Shown here in pieces: positions 20,635 to 25,803 of a DNA stretch of 64,000 bases. The notes below the pieces were generated by a model. That model was not told the DNA's origin, did not search any database, and worked only from the letters and a program-made list of their open reading frames with translations. The stretch is from NCBI GenBank assembly GCA_947503575.1, contig CANNDZ010000001.1:1736001-1800000 (forward strand). The letters run 5' to 3'. The position numbers and the translations under genes are program-made. How positions within the stretch are numbered: position 1 is the first letter of the stretch; every line of letters begins with the position of its first letter. The DNA is from an uncultured Kordiimonas sp. Lineage in GTDB: Bacteria; Pseudomonadota; Alphaproteobacteria; Sphingomonadales; Kordiimonadaceae.

Positions 20635-20958
20635 ATGACTACATTTGACAGCCGTGAAAAAGCCTTTGAAAACAAGTTTGCCCATGATGCTGATCTGATG
20701 TTTCGTGCCCGGGCGCGCCGTGACAGACTTTTTGGTGAATGGCTTGCTGGTGAAATGGGCTTAACCGGTGATGCGATTAAACAGTATGCGGGCTCTATTG
20801 TGACGGCCGACCTGGAAGAAGAGGGGGATGCTGACGTTGTACGCAAAGTTATGGCTGATCTTGAAAACTCCGACCTTTCCATGACCGCTGCAGAAGTAGA
20901 GAAGAAGCTTTTGTCCTTTATGGACGAAGCCAAAGCTCAAATTATGTCTGAAGTCTGA
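20635..20958 (+). CDS. F1-ATPase inhibitor zeta subunit (DUF1476)
   Basis: 107 residues, the usual size for this alphaproteobacterial family. It starts MTTFDSREKAFENKFAHD, the N-terminal part that in Paracoccus inhibits F1-ATPase hydrolysis, followed by the helical bundle with DRLFGEWLAGEMGL, AIKQYAGSIV and DVVRKVMADLE. It acts in the cytoplasm on the ATP synthase. Its position beside divergent purC is common in Alphaproteobacteria. A strong terminator follows at 20981. Its C-terminal ~80 residues are closely matched by the end of the TPR lipoprotein at 21996-24449. Confidence 0.93.
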   Translation: MTTFDSREKAFENKFAHDADLMFRARARRDRLFGEWLAGEMGLTGDAIKQYAGSIVTADLEEEGDADVVRKVMADLENSDLSMTAAEVEKKLLSFMDEAKAQIMSEV

Positions 20959-21024: not shown

Positions 21025-21741
21025 TTACACTGCGTTAATGCGTTTGCGCTCTCGCCGGGCGATCCAGATCATGCCAGGGATTAGTAGCATTAAAGGTGCT
21101 GGCTCCGGTACGGTAACTGGTTCTGTCACTGCAAAGAAATCGCTGGACCAAGCCGCCCCGTTATTCAGGGTTCCGTTTTGATTAAGAGCGTTACTTAGCG
21201 AAGTTGTAAAATCACCACCAAATGAAGCTGTATAATTGTAGGGTGCACCACCGCTGCTGATGCTTTCGGTAAAGCTGGTATTTGTTGTCAAGCTGGCAAC
21301 ATATACGCCGATGGCATAGGTTCCGACGCTGCTGAAAAAGGTGCCAGTTCCCGTTGCTGTTGTTGTCTGCAAATTCGCTGACGCAGTGCCGTCAGGAATA
21401 GTGCTTAAATTTACGCCGCTATTGCTGCCCAATCCGCCAGTAATCCAGGAAAATGTGCTGGACGAGAAATTCCATGCAAACCAGTTTACGCTGAACAGCG
21501 AAATATTGACCAAATTGCAGAGCGAGGTACCAGGACCGGTTGGGTTGTTTGCCACTGTCAGTCTTGATCCGCAAGCATTCAAAGGAATGTCATCCCCGAG
21601 CGCTACAGGTGCAAAACTTCCCGCATCGGCCGTTACATCCCAGTAGTTGGTCGCCTTTGCAGGCATTGCCATAAGCGCGCCTAACCCGATTACCGAGAGG
21701 CCAAAGGTAAAAGGCTTTAAGATTTTTGTGTATGAAATCAC
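21025..21741 (-). CDS. PEP-CTERM-like exported protein
   Basis: 238 residues from the GTG at 21741; this gives a signal peptide (ISYTKILKPFTFGLSVIGLGALMAMPAKA). The open frame continues 39 codons upstream, but that part has no signal-like logic. The mature protein is rich in Ser, Thr, Asn and Gly. It ends in VTVPEPAPLMLLIPGMIWIA followed by RRERKR, i.e. a VPEP motif, a hydrophobic stretch and a basic tail: the tripartite PEP-CTERM sorting signal used by exosortases. No exosortase gene is in the window. It is divergent from the TPR lipoprotein gene. Confidence 0.75.
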   Translation of the reverse strand: MISYTKILKPFTFGLSVIGLGALMAMPAKATNYWDVTADAGSFAPVALGDDIPLNACGSRLTVANNPTGPGTSLCNLVNISLFSVNWFAWNFSSSTFSWITGGLGSNSGVNLSTIPDGTASANLQTTTATGTGTFFSSVGTYAIGVYVASLTTNTSFTESISSGGAPYNYTASFGGDFTTSLSNALNQNGTLNNGAAWSSDFFAVTEPVTVPEPAPLMLLIPGMIWIARRERKRINAV

Positions 21742-21995
21742 TTTACGTCCATGCCAATAAAATAAAGCAGCCCCGACACCATTTAGTGTTCGTTGACTGC
21801 CCGACATCCCAATCACAAGTAATATTTTCAAAATAACGTAATTTGTATCAATTATCAATACAGTTGTATCAATTCGGGTGCAATGGCGTGTGGTTCATCC
21901 TATGTTGCCTTTTTTGTGTTACCGGCATTTGTCGGCTAAATAGCCTGCATTGATTGCAGCAAGACAATGTAGCTATCAAGATCTGGAGCAAAAGA

Positions 21996-24449
21996 TTGAG
22001 GACGCTAAAACTCTTTTCGGTTTTTATTCTGACTGTTGCCCTCGTTGCTTGCAGCGACGATGATCAGTCGGAAAAAAGGGCAATTTTAGAAGCCTACACC
22101 ATGGAGCAGCTTGAAGCTTTTGTGGAGGCTGGCGAGGCTGAAAAAGCAATCGAAGCAATTACTTTCTACCGCGAGGAAGGCACAGCGACTGACGAGCATT
22201 TTTTGTTACTTGCGACCATATATCTTGGGTCTGGTGACGGCATTGGCGCAGAGGAGACGATATATAAACTGCGCAATCGGGATTTTCCTGAAGAAAAGAC
22301 AGCTCTGCCCTTAGCGCAGGCTTTGGTCATGCAGGGTAAGCATCATGAGGCTGAAAAAGCCCTGAAAGGGGTTGCTCTTACTGGGGAGGACCTTTTCGAG
22401 TCTTTTATTTTACGCGGTGATATTATGCTTGCGCTGGGAGATAGCGCCAGAGCTGAGTCTTTTTATCAAGCTGCAATTGACACTGATCCTGACAATTTTC
22501 TTGCCTATGCTGCCATGGCGTTGTTTCAGGTGCAGCAGGGTGATTTCCGGCAAGCGCAGGTATTTATTGACCAAGCCGAGACCCTGGAGGCAGACGGTTT
22601 TTTGCTGCATTATTCCAAGGGCATGGTGGCGCGCTACTCAGGGCAGCTTGAAGATGCCAAAACTCATTTTGTTAACGCCGTAGAGGCAAATGATGTGGAT
22701 ACTCTTTCCCGGCTGGAATTGGTGGGGCTTTACCTTGCGGCTGATGAACTTGAGCTGGCTCAACTTCAACTTGACGCGGTATATGCGATTACGCCGATTA
22801 ACCCGATGGCCAATTATTATACCGCTCTGATATTGGTTTCAGAATCCAGGTTTGATGAAGCCGAGGACCTGCTGTTGAGAACGGGTGACTTTACGCGGCA
22901 GTATCCACTGGCAGCGCAGGTCTATGGTCTGACGACCTATGAGTTAGAGAAATATTCAACTGCGATACCTTACCTTTCACGGGCTCTGTCTTTTTTCCCG
23001 AATGATGTCTCAACGCGATTGGCGCTTGCAGACTCGTTGGCCAGACGGGGCGAGTCTAAGCGATCACTTCAGGTTCTCCAGCCGCTGATTGCGGCAGAAG
23101 ACAATGTGACGGCGCTGGTGCACGCAACGGCTGCTGCTGCGGGTGTAGGTGATGTCGGAAGCGCACGCCGTTACATTGAGCGAGCCCTTAAACTTGCAGA
23201 GCAGGGTGGTATTGATGACCCCGTTTTGATGAATGCTCTCATGAGAAAAGCCGCGTTTGCTAGATTTCTTGATGATGACCTGGACGGGGCAACTGCTCTT
23301 TTAGATGCCATGTATGCCAAGGACTCTGAAGATGTCGAAAGCCTGACCAACAAGGCAAACATGTTTCTGGCATCTGGTGATCTGGAGCAAGCTCAAACGG
23401 CCTTGAACCAACTTCTTTCGTTTGACCCAGAGAGTACAGTTGCCTCAAACTTGAAGGGTGCAATTCTACATCGACAAAGGCGGTTTGACGAAGCGATTGA
23501 GGCATATACCGAAGCAATATCCAAAGTGCCGGAGTATCAATCCGCGTTGAAGAACAGAGCTTTCGCTTATATTCAAAAGGAAGATTACGATAAGGCGAAA
23601 GCTGATTTGCAAATACTGATAGACCTGTCCGTAGAAGAACCGCAGGTTCAGGCGATGTACGCGCGTTCGCTGATCGAGACCGGAGACCCGGAGGGCGCTT
23701 TGCCATTTTTGGCCCGCGCGGTTGACGGATTGCCCAATTCATCCATCGTCCGGGCCGATAGAGCCGAGGCGCTTGCAATGCTGGGGTATTACTCTCGTGC
23801 ATTGGCGTCAGCGGCCGAAGCCAGAGACTTAGCTGCATATAATCAGGACTTTGTGACCTATATCGACCAGAAGGTTGAAGAATGGAATCAGGCCCTGACC
23901 GACCAGAGCAAGCTGGCAGAGGAAGAGAGAATTAGGCGCGCGGAGGAATTTGAGAAACAGCGTGCTGCGGAACTGGAAAAACAAGAGGCGATTAAAGAGC
24001 AGTCGCGTGATGTTTTGGATGCTGAGGAAGACCAGTCCGAACTTATGGCAGAGCTTGAAAGAATTGCGGAAGATAACCGTCGTTTGCGAGAGGAAGAGCG
24101 GCAGCAAGAACTCGAGTTTAAAGAAACTTTGGCGCCCCAAATTTCAGAAGAGCAGGCTGCGCAAGAGGCGCGCGCGTTAGAAATTCGCACAACGCGAAAT
24201 CAACTTTTTGGGTTATGGTTGGCTGCTGAACTTGGCCTTGAGAAGGAGGCAGCGATCGCTTATGCGGACTCTGTAGTTAAAGCTGATGAAAGTGAGCCAG
24301 GCGATACTGATATTATTCGTAAAGCCATAACTGACCTGGAGGCCGCGGGTAAAACTATGACTATTCAGGCGATTGAACAGGCGATTGCTGAAAAGATGGT
24401 TGAGGCACAATCAAAGCGCGTTGAAGACCAATCAACAAGTCAGCAATAG
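21996..24449 (+). CDS. TPR-repeat lipoprotein with C-terminal zeta-inhibitor-like (DUF1476) domain
   Basis: 817 residues from the TTG at 21996, chosen for the GGAG 8 bases upstream; a TTG at 21954 would add 14 residues. Signal peptide with lipobox LVAC (Cys19) followed by Ser, so probably an outer-membrane lipoprotein. Residues ~25-640 are many TPR-like helical repeats (e.g. GAILHRQRRFDEAIEAYTEA). Residues ~640-725 are a charged coiled coil. Residues ~728-808 match the zeta inhibitor of 20635-20958 without gaps (LFGLWLAAELGL against LFGEWLAGEMGL, GDTDIIRKAITDLE against GDADVVRKVMADLE), about 30 identities in 80 by eye. The N-terminal inhibitory segment of zeta is absent. The TPR part recalls PrsT-type PEP-CTERM-system lipoproteins, which suits the neighbour. 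Confidence 0.8.
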   Translation: MRTLKLFSVFILTVALVACSDDDQSEKRAILEAYTMEQLEAFVEAGEAEKAIEAITFYREEGTATDEHFLLLATIYLGSGDGIGAEETIYKLRNRDFPEEKTALPLAQALVMQGKHHEAEKALKGVALTGEDLFESFILRGDIMLALGDSARAESFYQAAIDTDPDNFLAYAAMALFQVQQGDFRQAQVFIDQAETLEADGFLLHYSKGMVARYSGQLEDAKTHFVNAVEANDVDTLSRLELVGLYLAADELELAQLQLDAVYAITPINPMANYYTALILVSESRFDEAEDLLLRTGDFTRQYPLAAQVYGLTTYELEKYSTAIPYLSRALSFFPNDVSTRLALADSLARRGESKRSLQVLQPLIAAEDNVTALVHATAAAAGVGDVGSARRYIERALKLAEQGGIDDPVLMNALMRKAAFARFLDDDLDGATALLDAMYAKDSEDVESLTNKANMFLASGDLEQAQTALNQLLSFDPESTVASNLKGAILHRQRRFDEAIEAYTEAISKVPEYQSALKNRAFAYIQKEDYDKAKADLQILIDLSVEEPQVQAMYARSLIETGDPEGALPFLARAVDGLPNSSIVRADRAEALAMLGYYSRALASAAEARDLAAYNQDFVTYIDQKVEEWNQALTDQSKLAEEERIRRAEEFEKQRAAELEKQEAIKEQSRDVLDAEEDQSELMAELERIAEDNRRLREEERQQELEFKETLAPQISEEQAAQEARALEIRTTRNQLFGLWLAAELGLEKEAAIAYADSVVKADESEPGDTDIIRKAITDLEAAGKTMTIQAIEQAIAEKMVEAQSKRVEDQSTSQQ

Positions 24450-24609
24450 CCAATAAAACGAGCGCCGTTTGCAGCCGGGGTTTGTTGGTTGCCGCTAAAA
24501 CATCCGATGCTCAGTCGCAGCACGTAGAAACCAATAGTGAAACGCAGCGTTTTTGTGGCACCTCTTGTATGCTCGACGTCGTGTTAAATCAGATCAACCG
24601 GAAACCATT

Positions 24610-25803
24610 ATGCCTGTTTTGTTTGTTGCGGTGCTTGTGATCATGGGTAGTTTTGCCATGTTGCTGCCTTCCATCATGTATGTGTTGGGCAACATGGGCC
24701 TATCGAGCAGCATGTCTACACCTATTATTGCCGTTTACAGCCTGGCTCAGTTCCTAACCGGACCCCAATGGGGGCGTTTGTCAGACCTGAAAGGACGCAA
24801 GCCAGTGTTAGCGGTGGCCTTGTTTTTAGGCAGCCTGTCTTATGGTTCAATGGCGCTGTTTTCAGACAATATTGTGGCCCTGTTTCTGACCATGATTTGT
24901 GCAGGGCTTTGTGCGGGCTCTCTTGCTGTTGTGTTCGCCGCAGTGTCCGATATTACGGATGTGAAGAACAGGACACGCGGCATGGCACTGGTTGGTGCAG
25001 CAATTGGCTTGTCTTTCGTGATCGGAACCGCAATCGGTGGCTCGGTTGCCGGGTCGGATGCCGCCAGTGCTACGATGACGGGGCCTGCGACATCTGCCTT
25101 TGTTTCGTGCCTTTTGGGTTCATTGCTGGTTGCGCTGTTTATGACGGAAACCCGTCAAGGGCAACAATCAGATACAGCATCTCAGGGTAAAACTATGAAC
25201 CGATTTGCCGCTTTTCAAAGAGTCGCACGGCATCCGACACTGGTTAAGTTGTGTTTTCTGATCCTCGCATTCACTTTTAGTCTGGCCTTAATGGAGCCTC
25301 TGATCCCGAAATATATATTGGTGCACTTCCAATGGGGTCCCATCGAGATGCGCAATGTTCTGGTGTTTGTTGGCGTTATACTTGTGACGGTTCAGACAAC
25401 GTTGGTTGGACCTCTCGCCAAGCGCTTTGGCGAAATAATGCTGGTTCGTATCGGGCTGGGGCTGATGGGTAGCGGGCTCTTGCTTTTGGCTGCGGCTCCT
25501 GATCCCTACGTCATATACATAGCGCTCACTTTCACAAGCATTGGAACTGCATTCTTTAGCGCGGCTGGTTTGTCCCTTGCCTCCCTGGAAGCGGCGGACG
25601 ATGAAAAGGGTGCGGTTCTCGGTGTGGCTCAGTCAATGCAGGCGTTAGGTCGGTCATTTGGGCCACTTGTCGCGGGTGCCTTATTCGATGTGAGTGTTGG
25701 TTTGCCTTTTTTTCTGGGCTCATTTGTTGTCGTCGTTCTTCTCATCTCGTTTCAACGTCTGACACGCCAGTTTCATCTCAAGTCCGTGCGTGGCCAAGGG
25801 TAA
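24610..25803 (+). CDS. MFS transporter
   Basis: 397 residues from the ATG at 24610; a TTG at 24553 would give 416 with a polar N-terminal extension. Neither start has a strong ribosome binding site. About 12 hydrophobic segments. The MFS motif A is clear between segments 2 and 3 (GRLSDLKGRKPVLA), with SFVIGTAIGGSVAG in segment 5 (antiporter-like motif C region). It resembles drug/metabolite proton antiporters of the TetA/Bcr type; substrate unknown. No neighbour suggests a partner. Confidence 0.85.
   Translation: MPVLFVAVLVIMGSFAMLLPSIMYVLGNMGLSSSMSTPIIAVYSLAQFLTGPQWGRLSDLKGRKPVLAVALFLGSLSYGSMALFSDNIVALFLTMICAGLCAGSLAVVFAAVSDITDVKNRTRGMALVGAAIGLSFVIGTAIGGSVAGSDAASATMTGPATSAFVSCLLGSLLVALFMTETRQGQQSDTASQGKTMNRFAAFQRVARHPTLVKLCFLILAFTFSLALMEPLIPKYILVHFQWGPIEMRNVLVFVGVILVTVQTTLVGPLAKRFGEIMLVRIGLGLMGSGLLLLAAAPDPYVIYIALTFTSIGTAFFSAAGLSLASLEAADDEKGAVLGVAQSMQALGRSFGPLVAGALFDVSVGLPFFLGSFVVVVLLISFQRLTRQFHLKSVRGQG

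Follow-up and report, generated by a model that had tools for sequence, protein, structure and literature searches.

Functional zeta inhibitors of F1-ATPase are free cytoplasmic proteins. In an uncultured Kordiimonas sp. we find a zeta-type domain placed at the end of a tetratricopeptide repeat (TPR) lipoprotein, behind a lipobox signal, a TPR array and charged helices; the signal and lipobox point to export of this protein from the cytoplasm. The gene lies at 21996-24449 on the plus strand of a window of 64,000 nucleotides (the whole stretch of DNA that was analysed, positions 1,736,001 to 1,800,000 of contig CANNDZ010000001.1), to which coordinates refer unless a locus is named. The fused domain has lost the inhibitory positions of zeta and is retained in a group of related genomes, an indication that some Kordiimonas have put the fold to a different use. 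We see an even chance that the fold of a cytoplasmic ATP-synthase brake was exapted, after loss of its inhibitory segment, into a conserved extracytoplasmic docking head on a TPR lipoprotein of the PEP-CTERM system.

The gene is one uninterrupted open reading frame (ORF; 21954/21996-24449, plus strand), which from the TTG at 21996 encodes 817 amino acids; GGAG is found at 21985-21988, seven bases upstream of that start. The product consists, from N to C terminus, of a lipoprotein signal, a TPR array, a coiled coil and the zeta-like domain, as listed here with the free zeta gene:

21996..22052, plus strand: lipoprotein signal peptide, residues 1-19, ending in the lipobox L-V-A-C (assigned by eye)
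22050-22052, plus strand: codon of the lipobox Cys19
22059..23831, plus strand: TPR array, helical in the model over residues 22-612 (Pfam TPR families, model, TIGR02917)
23844..24128, plus strand: long charged helices forming a coiled-coil-like stalk, residues 617-670 and 681-711 (model; coiled coil judged by eye)
24156..24413, plus strand: zeta-like domain, Pfam stretch residues 721-806 (PF07345, PDB sequence matches 2kzc/2ll0/7vkv, Foldseek)
24177-24413, plus strand: gap-free core of the zeta-like domain, residues 728-806
20635..20958, plus strand: gene for the free zeta inhibitor, N-terminus complete; the domain may derive from it (PF07345 positions 1-102)

The original prediction, made from the letters of the sequence, had claimed a zeta-type domain at the end of a TPR lipoprotein, and the profile search it proposed for DUF1476 (Pfam ATPaseInh_sub_z, PF07345) was significant for both the free and the fused protein. 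The fused domain matched with 62.4 bits (E 5.8e-17), well above the gathering score of 25, and the free ORF matched over all 102 positions (127.3 bits, E 3.7e-37); these are the only two PF07345 matches in the genome. The gap-free alignment of the two, with about 30 identities counted by eye, was reproduced by BLASTP (33/77 identical, 49/77 positive, 0 gaps, E 3e-18). The local score of this pair was 164, while 5000 shuffles of the tail gave a mean of 30.9 (sd 5.6) and a maximum of 62. A sequence search of the PDB returned 2kzc, 2ll0 (also 2mdz, 5dn6) and 7vkv at E 8.8e-10 to 8.1e-9, with the next entry at 0.17. The Pfam score, the alignment with its shuffles and the PDB matches together rule out a chance likeness of helical, charged sequence.

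Structure prediction, also proposed originally, gave a consistent picture. An AlphaFold2 model of the C-terminal 230 residues, for which the six fused sequences described below were the only input, ended in four helices (mean predicted local distance difference test score, pLDDT, 83.1; predicted template modelling score, pTM, 0.42); block means of pLDDT within the zeta-like domain were 80-94, falling to 64 in the last ten residues. Foldseek matched this model to 2kzc (1.6 A root-mean-square deviation (rmsd), TM 0.87 by target length, E 3.3e-3, probability 1.00) and to 7vkv (3.5 A rmsd, E 3.5e-3, probability 1.00). Nothing reached E 0.001, matches beyond these two had probabilities of at most 0.14, and 2ll0 and 5dn6 were not among the matches listed. 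The fused domain is thus predicted to form a four-helix globular bundle resembling two zeta NMR structures, and since the training set of AlphaFold2 included the PDB, the fold match supports this assignment and does not prove it.

A full-length model built from 12 proteins (mean pLDDT 87.3) placed TPR helices up to residue 612, stalk helices at 617-670 and 681-711 with pLDDT below 50 at 669-680, and the helices of the zeta-like domain at 718-745, 751-764, 771-783 and 790-815. Its pTM was 0.51 and the relative placement of the parts is not reliable; the 50 Foldseek matches listed for it were TPR and other helical-repeat proteins, with no zeta among them. Pfam TPR families match most of the protein (best TPR_19, E 4.8e-35). 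A stretch like DQSELMAELERIAEENRKLR at 24036-24086 precedes the zeta domain; E686, L687, A691, E692, N694 and R695 in it are invariant in the six fused proteins, unfused relatives have no counterpart, and the stretch may belong to the acquired module.

Comparison of the six fused domains with 58 free zetas, position by position, separated what was lost from what was kept. The free-zeta near-invariants F4, E12, D18 and F23 were missing in 6/6 fused domains and R28 in 5/6, although the N-terminal end of the fused rows is loosely aligned. The inhibitory N-terminal segment (the first 14-18 residues of zeta) is not present in the fused domains, as the original prediction had stated. Excerpts of PMC10469736 place the inhibitory domain of zeta in the first 14 residues, and those of PMC5795051 report that an N-terminally truncated Paracoccus zeta did not inhibit. 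Thirteen consensus positions were retained in 6/6 fused domains (R29, N30, G34, W36, A38, D59, E62, G64, D67, R70, K71, D75 and A99); N30 is D in the window's own free zeta. L32, Y51 and V68 varied within the fused group. T771, A777 and Q791 were invariant in the fused group and occurred in 0 to 2% of free zetas. The kept positions likely serve the fold and the lost ones likely serve F1, and if this is true the fused domains amount to an experiment of nature, in which residues that determine the zeta fold can be told from those that bind F1.

Among the fused proteins (15 pairs) mean identity reached 57% for the TPR part and 55% for the zeta domain, against 44% for the coil, 28% for the linker and 11% for the C-terminal tail (10 pairs). 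The domain is therefore conserved about as well as the TPR part, unlike the linker. Its pN/pS (nonsynonymous to synonymous) ratio was 0.42, with pS 0.79 and so close to saturation.

The search of related genomes that had been suggested covered 19 genomes of the genus Kordiimonas, 396 of the order and 385 of the class. The fused domain was found in 6/19 genus genomes and free zeta in 18/19, the sole genome without it being 80% complete; all six fused genomes also encode a free zeta. The five further genomes carry the same fusion in a single frame of 828-848 amino acids with no internal stop, which excludes a frameshift joining two genes at 24150-24200 and rules out an assembly artefact. In the order sample the fusion was confined to the same 6/396 genomes, every one in the genus; in the 18 others matching at E 1e-19 the match began at profile position 110 or later, that is, in the zeta part. 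In the class sample 226/385 genomes matched at 1e-5, and among the matches listed (to about E 4e-14) the window's genome alone also matched the stalk; every listed match from another genome either began at position 112 or later of the 230-position profile or ran through an in-frame stop. Nine listed class matches in open frames of at least 300 amino acids were all free zetas, each with a Met of its own and a complete N-terminus, and four more rows that were read proved to be free zetas too. A wider fusion overlooked by annotation therefore had no case among the class matches listed; weaker or differently fused copies could be missed, since these lists end at about E 4e-14 and, for the Pfam search of the class sample, at about E 2e-37. 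A search with the whole protein matched 51/59 relatives; among its matches are TPR paralogues and free zetas, and also products of 925-1000-aa frames, taken as PrsT-like by length. The nearest named records, from two uncultured Kordiimonas sp. (63 and 61% identity), were taken as the genomes G006 and G018 (named loci L033 and L034) and not counted twice; three other loci from the contig scan, which come from other groups and match the TPR part weakly, were set aside.

The six fused domains formed one clade, with support of 97/97 against 18 free zetas and 100/99 against 58, and so did the TPR parts of the six proteins (100/100; 17 rows including tandem copies of G001 and G008). A tree of PurL/Q/C from 17 genomes, which leaves out G002 and G005 and in which G009 and G010 have less than a third of the columns, placed the six inside an eight-genome clade (95/97), of which the other two members, G010 and G015, lack both the TPR lipoprotein and its PEP-CTERM-like neighbour. 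One fusion followed by loss of this gene pair would be the simplest history.

The original prediction had proposed local duplication and reuse of the fold. Reuse held up on the Pfam and PDB matches, the model, the residues and the six genomes; as for local duplication, the zeta gene alongside is a possible but unproven source of the domain. Capture from the zeta of another lineage, with the same module and location, is the alternative, and we think it rather unlikely. In its favour, a 64-row zeta tree (76 columns) joined the fused clade with a distant class row, G188 (99/83), beside zetas of the same family and outside those of the genus. The branches are long and the columns few, however; constraining the fused clade with the genus zetas was 14.8 log units worse and was not rejected by the approximately unbiased (AU) test (0.271). 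When three long rows were omitted, in a quicker search, the fused clade adjoined zetas of its family, and a tree that nested it among free zetas from the eight genomes scored 7.1 log units better (AU 0.655). Zeta is, moreover, the gene next door.

The surroundings of the gene suggest a link with the PEP-CTERM system. The divergent neighbour and three loci that lack the gene pair are as follows:

21025..21774, minus strand: neighbour whose tail is PEP-CTERM-like by eye (VPEP, then a hydrophobic stretch and RR)
L077:8858-10612 (G010): zeta adjoining MFS, pair absent
L075:7283-9141 (G015): zeta adjoining MFS, pair absent
L068:6632-8453 (G012): zeta adjoining MFS, pair absent

The fetched genus loci keep, completely or partly, the order purL-purQ-purC-zeta-(PEP-CTERM-like, TPR lipoprotein)-MFS-STAS-PP2C regulator-LysR. 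Of 20 stretches fetched, L076 (which ends after zeta), L079 (a different locus) and L071 (the zeta side only, of G014) were not counted. A PEP-CTERM-like ORF adjoined the TPR lipoprotein in 15/15 loci that bear the latter (14 fetched and the window; the case in L078 is weak, at 46 bits), and both genes were absent from the 3/3 other judged loci. A simple pattern found a PEP-type tail in 17/20 neighbour ORFs, the other three having SEP, AEP or a frame that overruns the motif. The genome itself encodes an exosortase (PF09721, E 1.7e-56) and, in a 964-aa frame elsewhere, a distinct PrsT that exceeds the TIGR02917 cut-off; the fused protein is thus a TPR lipoprotein in an exosortase-bearing genome. 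Tandem copies of the PEP-CTERM-like gene and TPR lipoprotein in G001 (L060:6140-11485) and G008 (L065:6542-12687) suggest that the pair duplicates as a unit.

Starting from the fusion, its single clade, the selective constraint and the loss of the inhibitory positions, all of which are read from the sequences, we infer export and a docking role, with partners, function and donor gene as follows. The product would be a short TPR lipoprotein, PrsT-like, that belongs to the PEP-CTERM/exosortase surface system, held by a lipid anchor and facing the periplasm (or the cell surface). In the ancestor of a Kordiimonas subclade its C-terminal coiled coil would have gained a zeta ATPase-inhibitor domain, perhaps copied from the adjacent zeta gene, with the inhibitory N-terminal segment dropped and the four-helix bundle retained. 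The TPR array may hold one partner, most likely the co-encoded PEP-CTERM-like protein or the polysaccharide machinery; TPR domains bind proteins and were proposed as adaptors, according to excerpts of the PrsT paper (PMC1569441). The coiled coil would serve as a stalk, and the zeta bundle would dock either a further partner outside the cytoplasm or a bundle of its own kind. The most economical reading is a stalk that bears a docking head, and we lean slightly towards the explanation as a whole.

Several observations weigh against it. The proposed docking head has no known partner. The fused domain evolves faster than free zeta (55% identity over 79 positions, compared with 77% for the whole free protein in the same six genomes, where pN/pS was 0.20); it is maintained, though under a looser or different constraint than the free inhibitor. 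The PEP-CTERM cut-off (PF07589, 20.7 bits) was reached by 0/8 neighbours tested, five of which gave weaker matches (best 19.5, L073), and the window's own neighbour had no Pfam match at all, PF07589 included. The fused lipoprotein scored 191.2 bits against TIGR02917, below the cut-off of 312.2, with its best stretch at positions 9-393 of 899. Matches in the window to the sigma-54 consensus with at most two mismatches numbered eight against 17.7 expected, and none was near the gene. Finally, within the six the TPR tree paired G006 with G018 (100/100), while PurL/Q/C grouped G006 with G000, the window's genome, and G003 (100/99). The fused proteins of G006 (L064:6716-9235) and G018 (L074:6385-8868) shared 82% identity in the TPR part and 58% in both the coil and the zeta domain. 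This uneven identity and the conflict between trees make an exchange of cassettes or gene parts within the genus possible, perhaps likely, and weigh against one fusion with later loss as the complete history; recombination inside the fused gene of G006 and G018 is also possible.

Other roles for the bundle have to be weighed against docking. It might merely stabilise the end of the coiled coil, as an inert cap with no partner; unfused relatives, which end in short charged tails, persist without the domain, and the rate of change just described fits such a role. Identity in the domain is nevertheless close to the value for the TPR part, with linker and tail diverging, and three new invariant positions have appeared (T771, A777, Q791), so that we regard an inert cap as unlikely. 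A ligand-sensing head, in which the bundle would report extracytoplasmic nucleotides to the TPR lipoprotein, has to contend with the scarcity of nucleotides beyond the cytoplasm. It draws on the retained core residues, e.g. R70, K71 and D75, and on the low-affinity nucleotide site of Paracoccus zeta, which the bundle would keep; that site has no defined motif in excerpts of the paper describing it (PMC9317440), and we hold this role to be quite improbable.

Least credible is a C-terminal domain that still acts on F1 in the cytoplasm, whether through lack of export, proteolytic release or an internal translation start. Core zeta residues are retained, and in excerpts of PMC5795051 helix 4 of zeta contacts an F1 alpha subunit, the resolved parts of Paracoccus zeta on the enzyme being residues 1-32 and helix 4 (82-103); zeta deletion alone was insufficient to activate hydrolysis (PMC5795051, excerpts). 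Against this, the lipobox Cys19 is invariant in 12/12 aligned proteins (12 of the 17 rows of the TPR tree, the remaining five lying outside that alignment), and every fused genome has its free zeta. A free cytoplasmic domain made from an internal start was rejected, as start codons between coil and domain differ in position across the six and none is common to all. With the inhibitory part gone and the domain behind a lipoprotein signal, action on F1 appears very unlikely. The original claim that the domain cannot reach F1 is supported by the lost positions and the conserved Cys, the location of the domain being deduced from signal and lipobox.

Compared with the ATP synthase zeta subunit (PF07345; 2LL0/2MDZ/5DN6, 7VKV, 2KZC), the fused domain has the above-cut-off Pfam score, the predicted four-helix bundle and the core residues R-N...G.W.A and D..E.G..D..RK...D, but it lacks the IF1-like N-terminal segment, carries its own invariants and is attached to a lipoprotein predicted to lie outside the cytoplasm. 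It resembles PrsT (the XrtA/PEP-CTERM TPR lipoprotein, TIGR02917) in the lipoprotein signal and long TPR array, the adjoining PEP-CTERM-like gene and the exosortase in the genome; it differs in the lower score, in ending in a coiled coil and zeta domain, and in coexisting with a separate full PrsT. The unfused relatives that occupy this locus elsewhere in the genus (L067 and L069, for instance) share the lipobox, TPR array, charged helix, PEP-CTERM-like neighbour and similar gene order, but they stop after the charged helix without a zeta domain, in frames of 689-739 amino acids (the cut-off copy of G009 left out).

No described protein with the lipoprotein-TPR-zeta layout was found in the open-access papers searched, in line with the original prediction. 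PMC10469736, in which Kordiimonas is mentioned for a zeta sequence in a tree, holds no word beginning with fused or fusion, and PMC9317440 no word beginning with fused. What is new is the arrangement of known domains and their probable compartment, for which no description was found in open-access papers. Zeta has been studied as an F1-ATPase inhibitor, and a conserved copy without the inhibitory positions, probably in another compartment, would demonstrate that the bundle is capable of a different function. The protein also opens a way into the study of TPR lipoproteins in the PEP-CTERM system, and annotation by PF07345 alone could mislabel such fused proteins as ATPase inhibitors.

Other features of these loci were noted. 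Between zeta and the PEP-CTERM-like gene, G006 has an ORF of 752 amino acids (L064:10283-12541) that by eye resembles a molybdenum hydroxylase large subunit, and G018 has a gap of similar size. The MFS transporter at 24553-25803 had its best scores with Tet-type efflux models, far under their cut-offs. The window's genome carries three more TPR paralogues in frames of 660-740 amino acids (G000:C2:672230-674269, C1:1602828-1604654 and C1:1099731-1101629).
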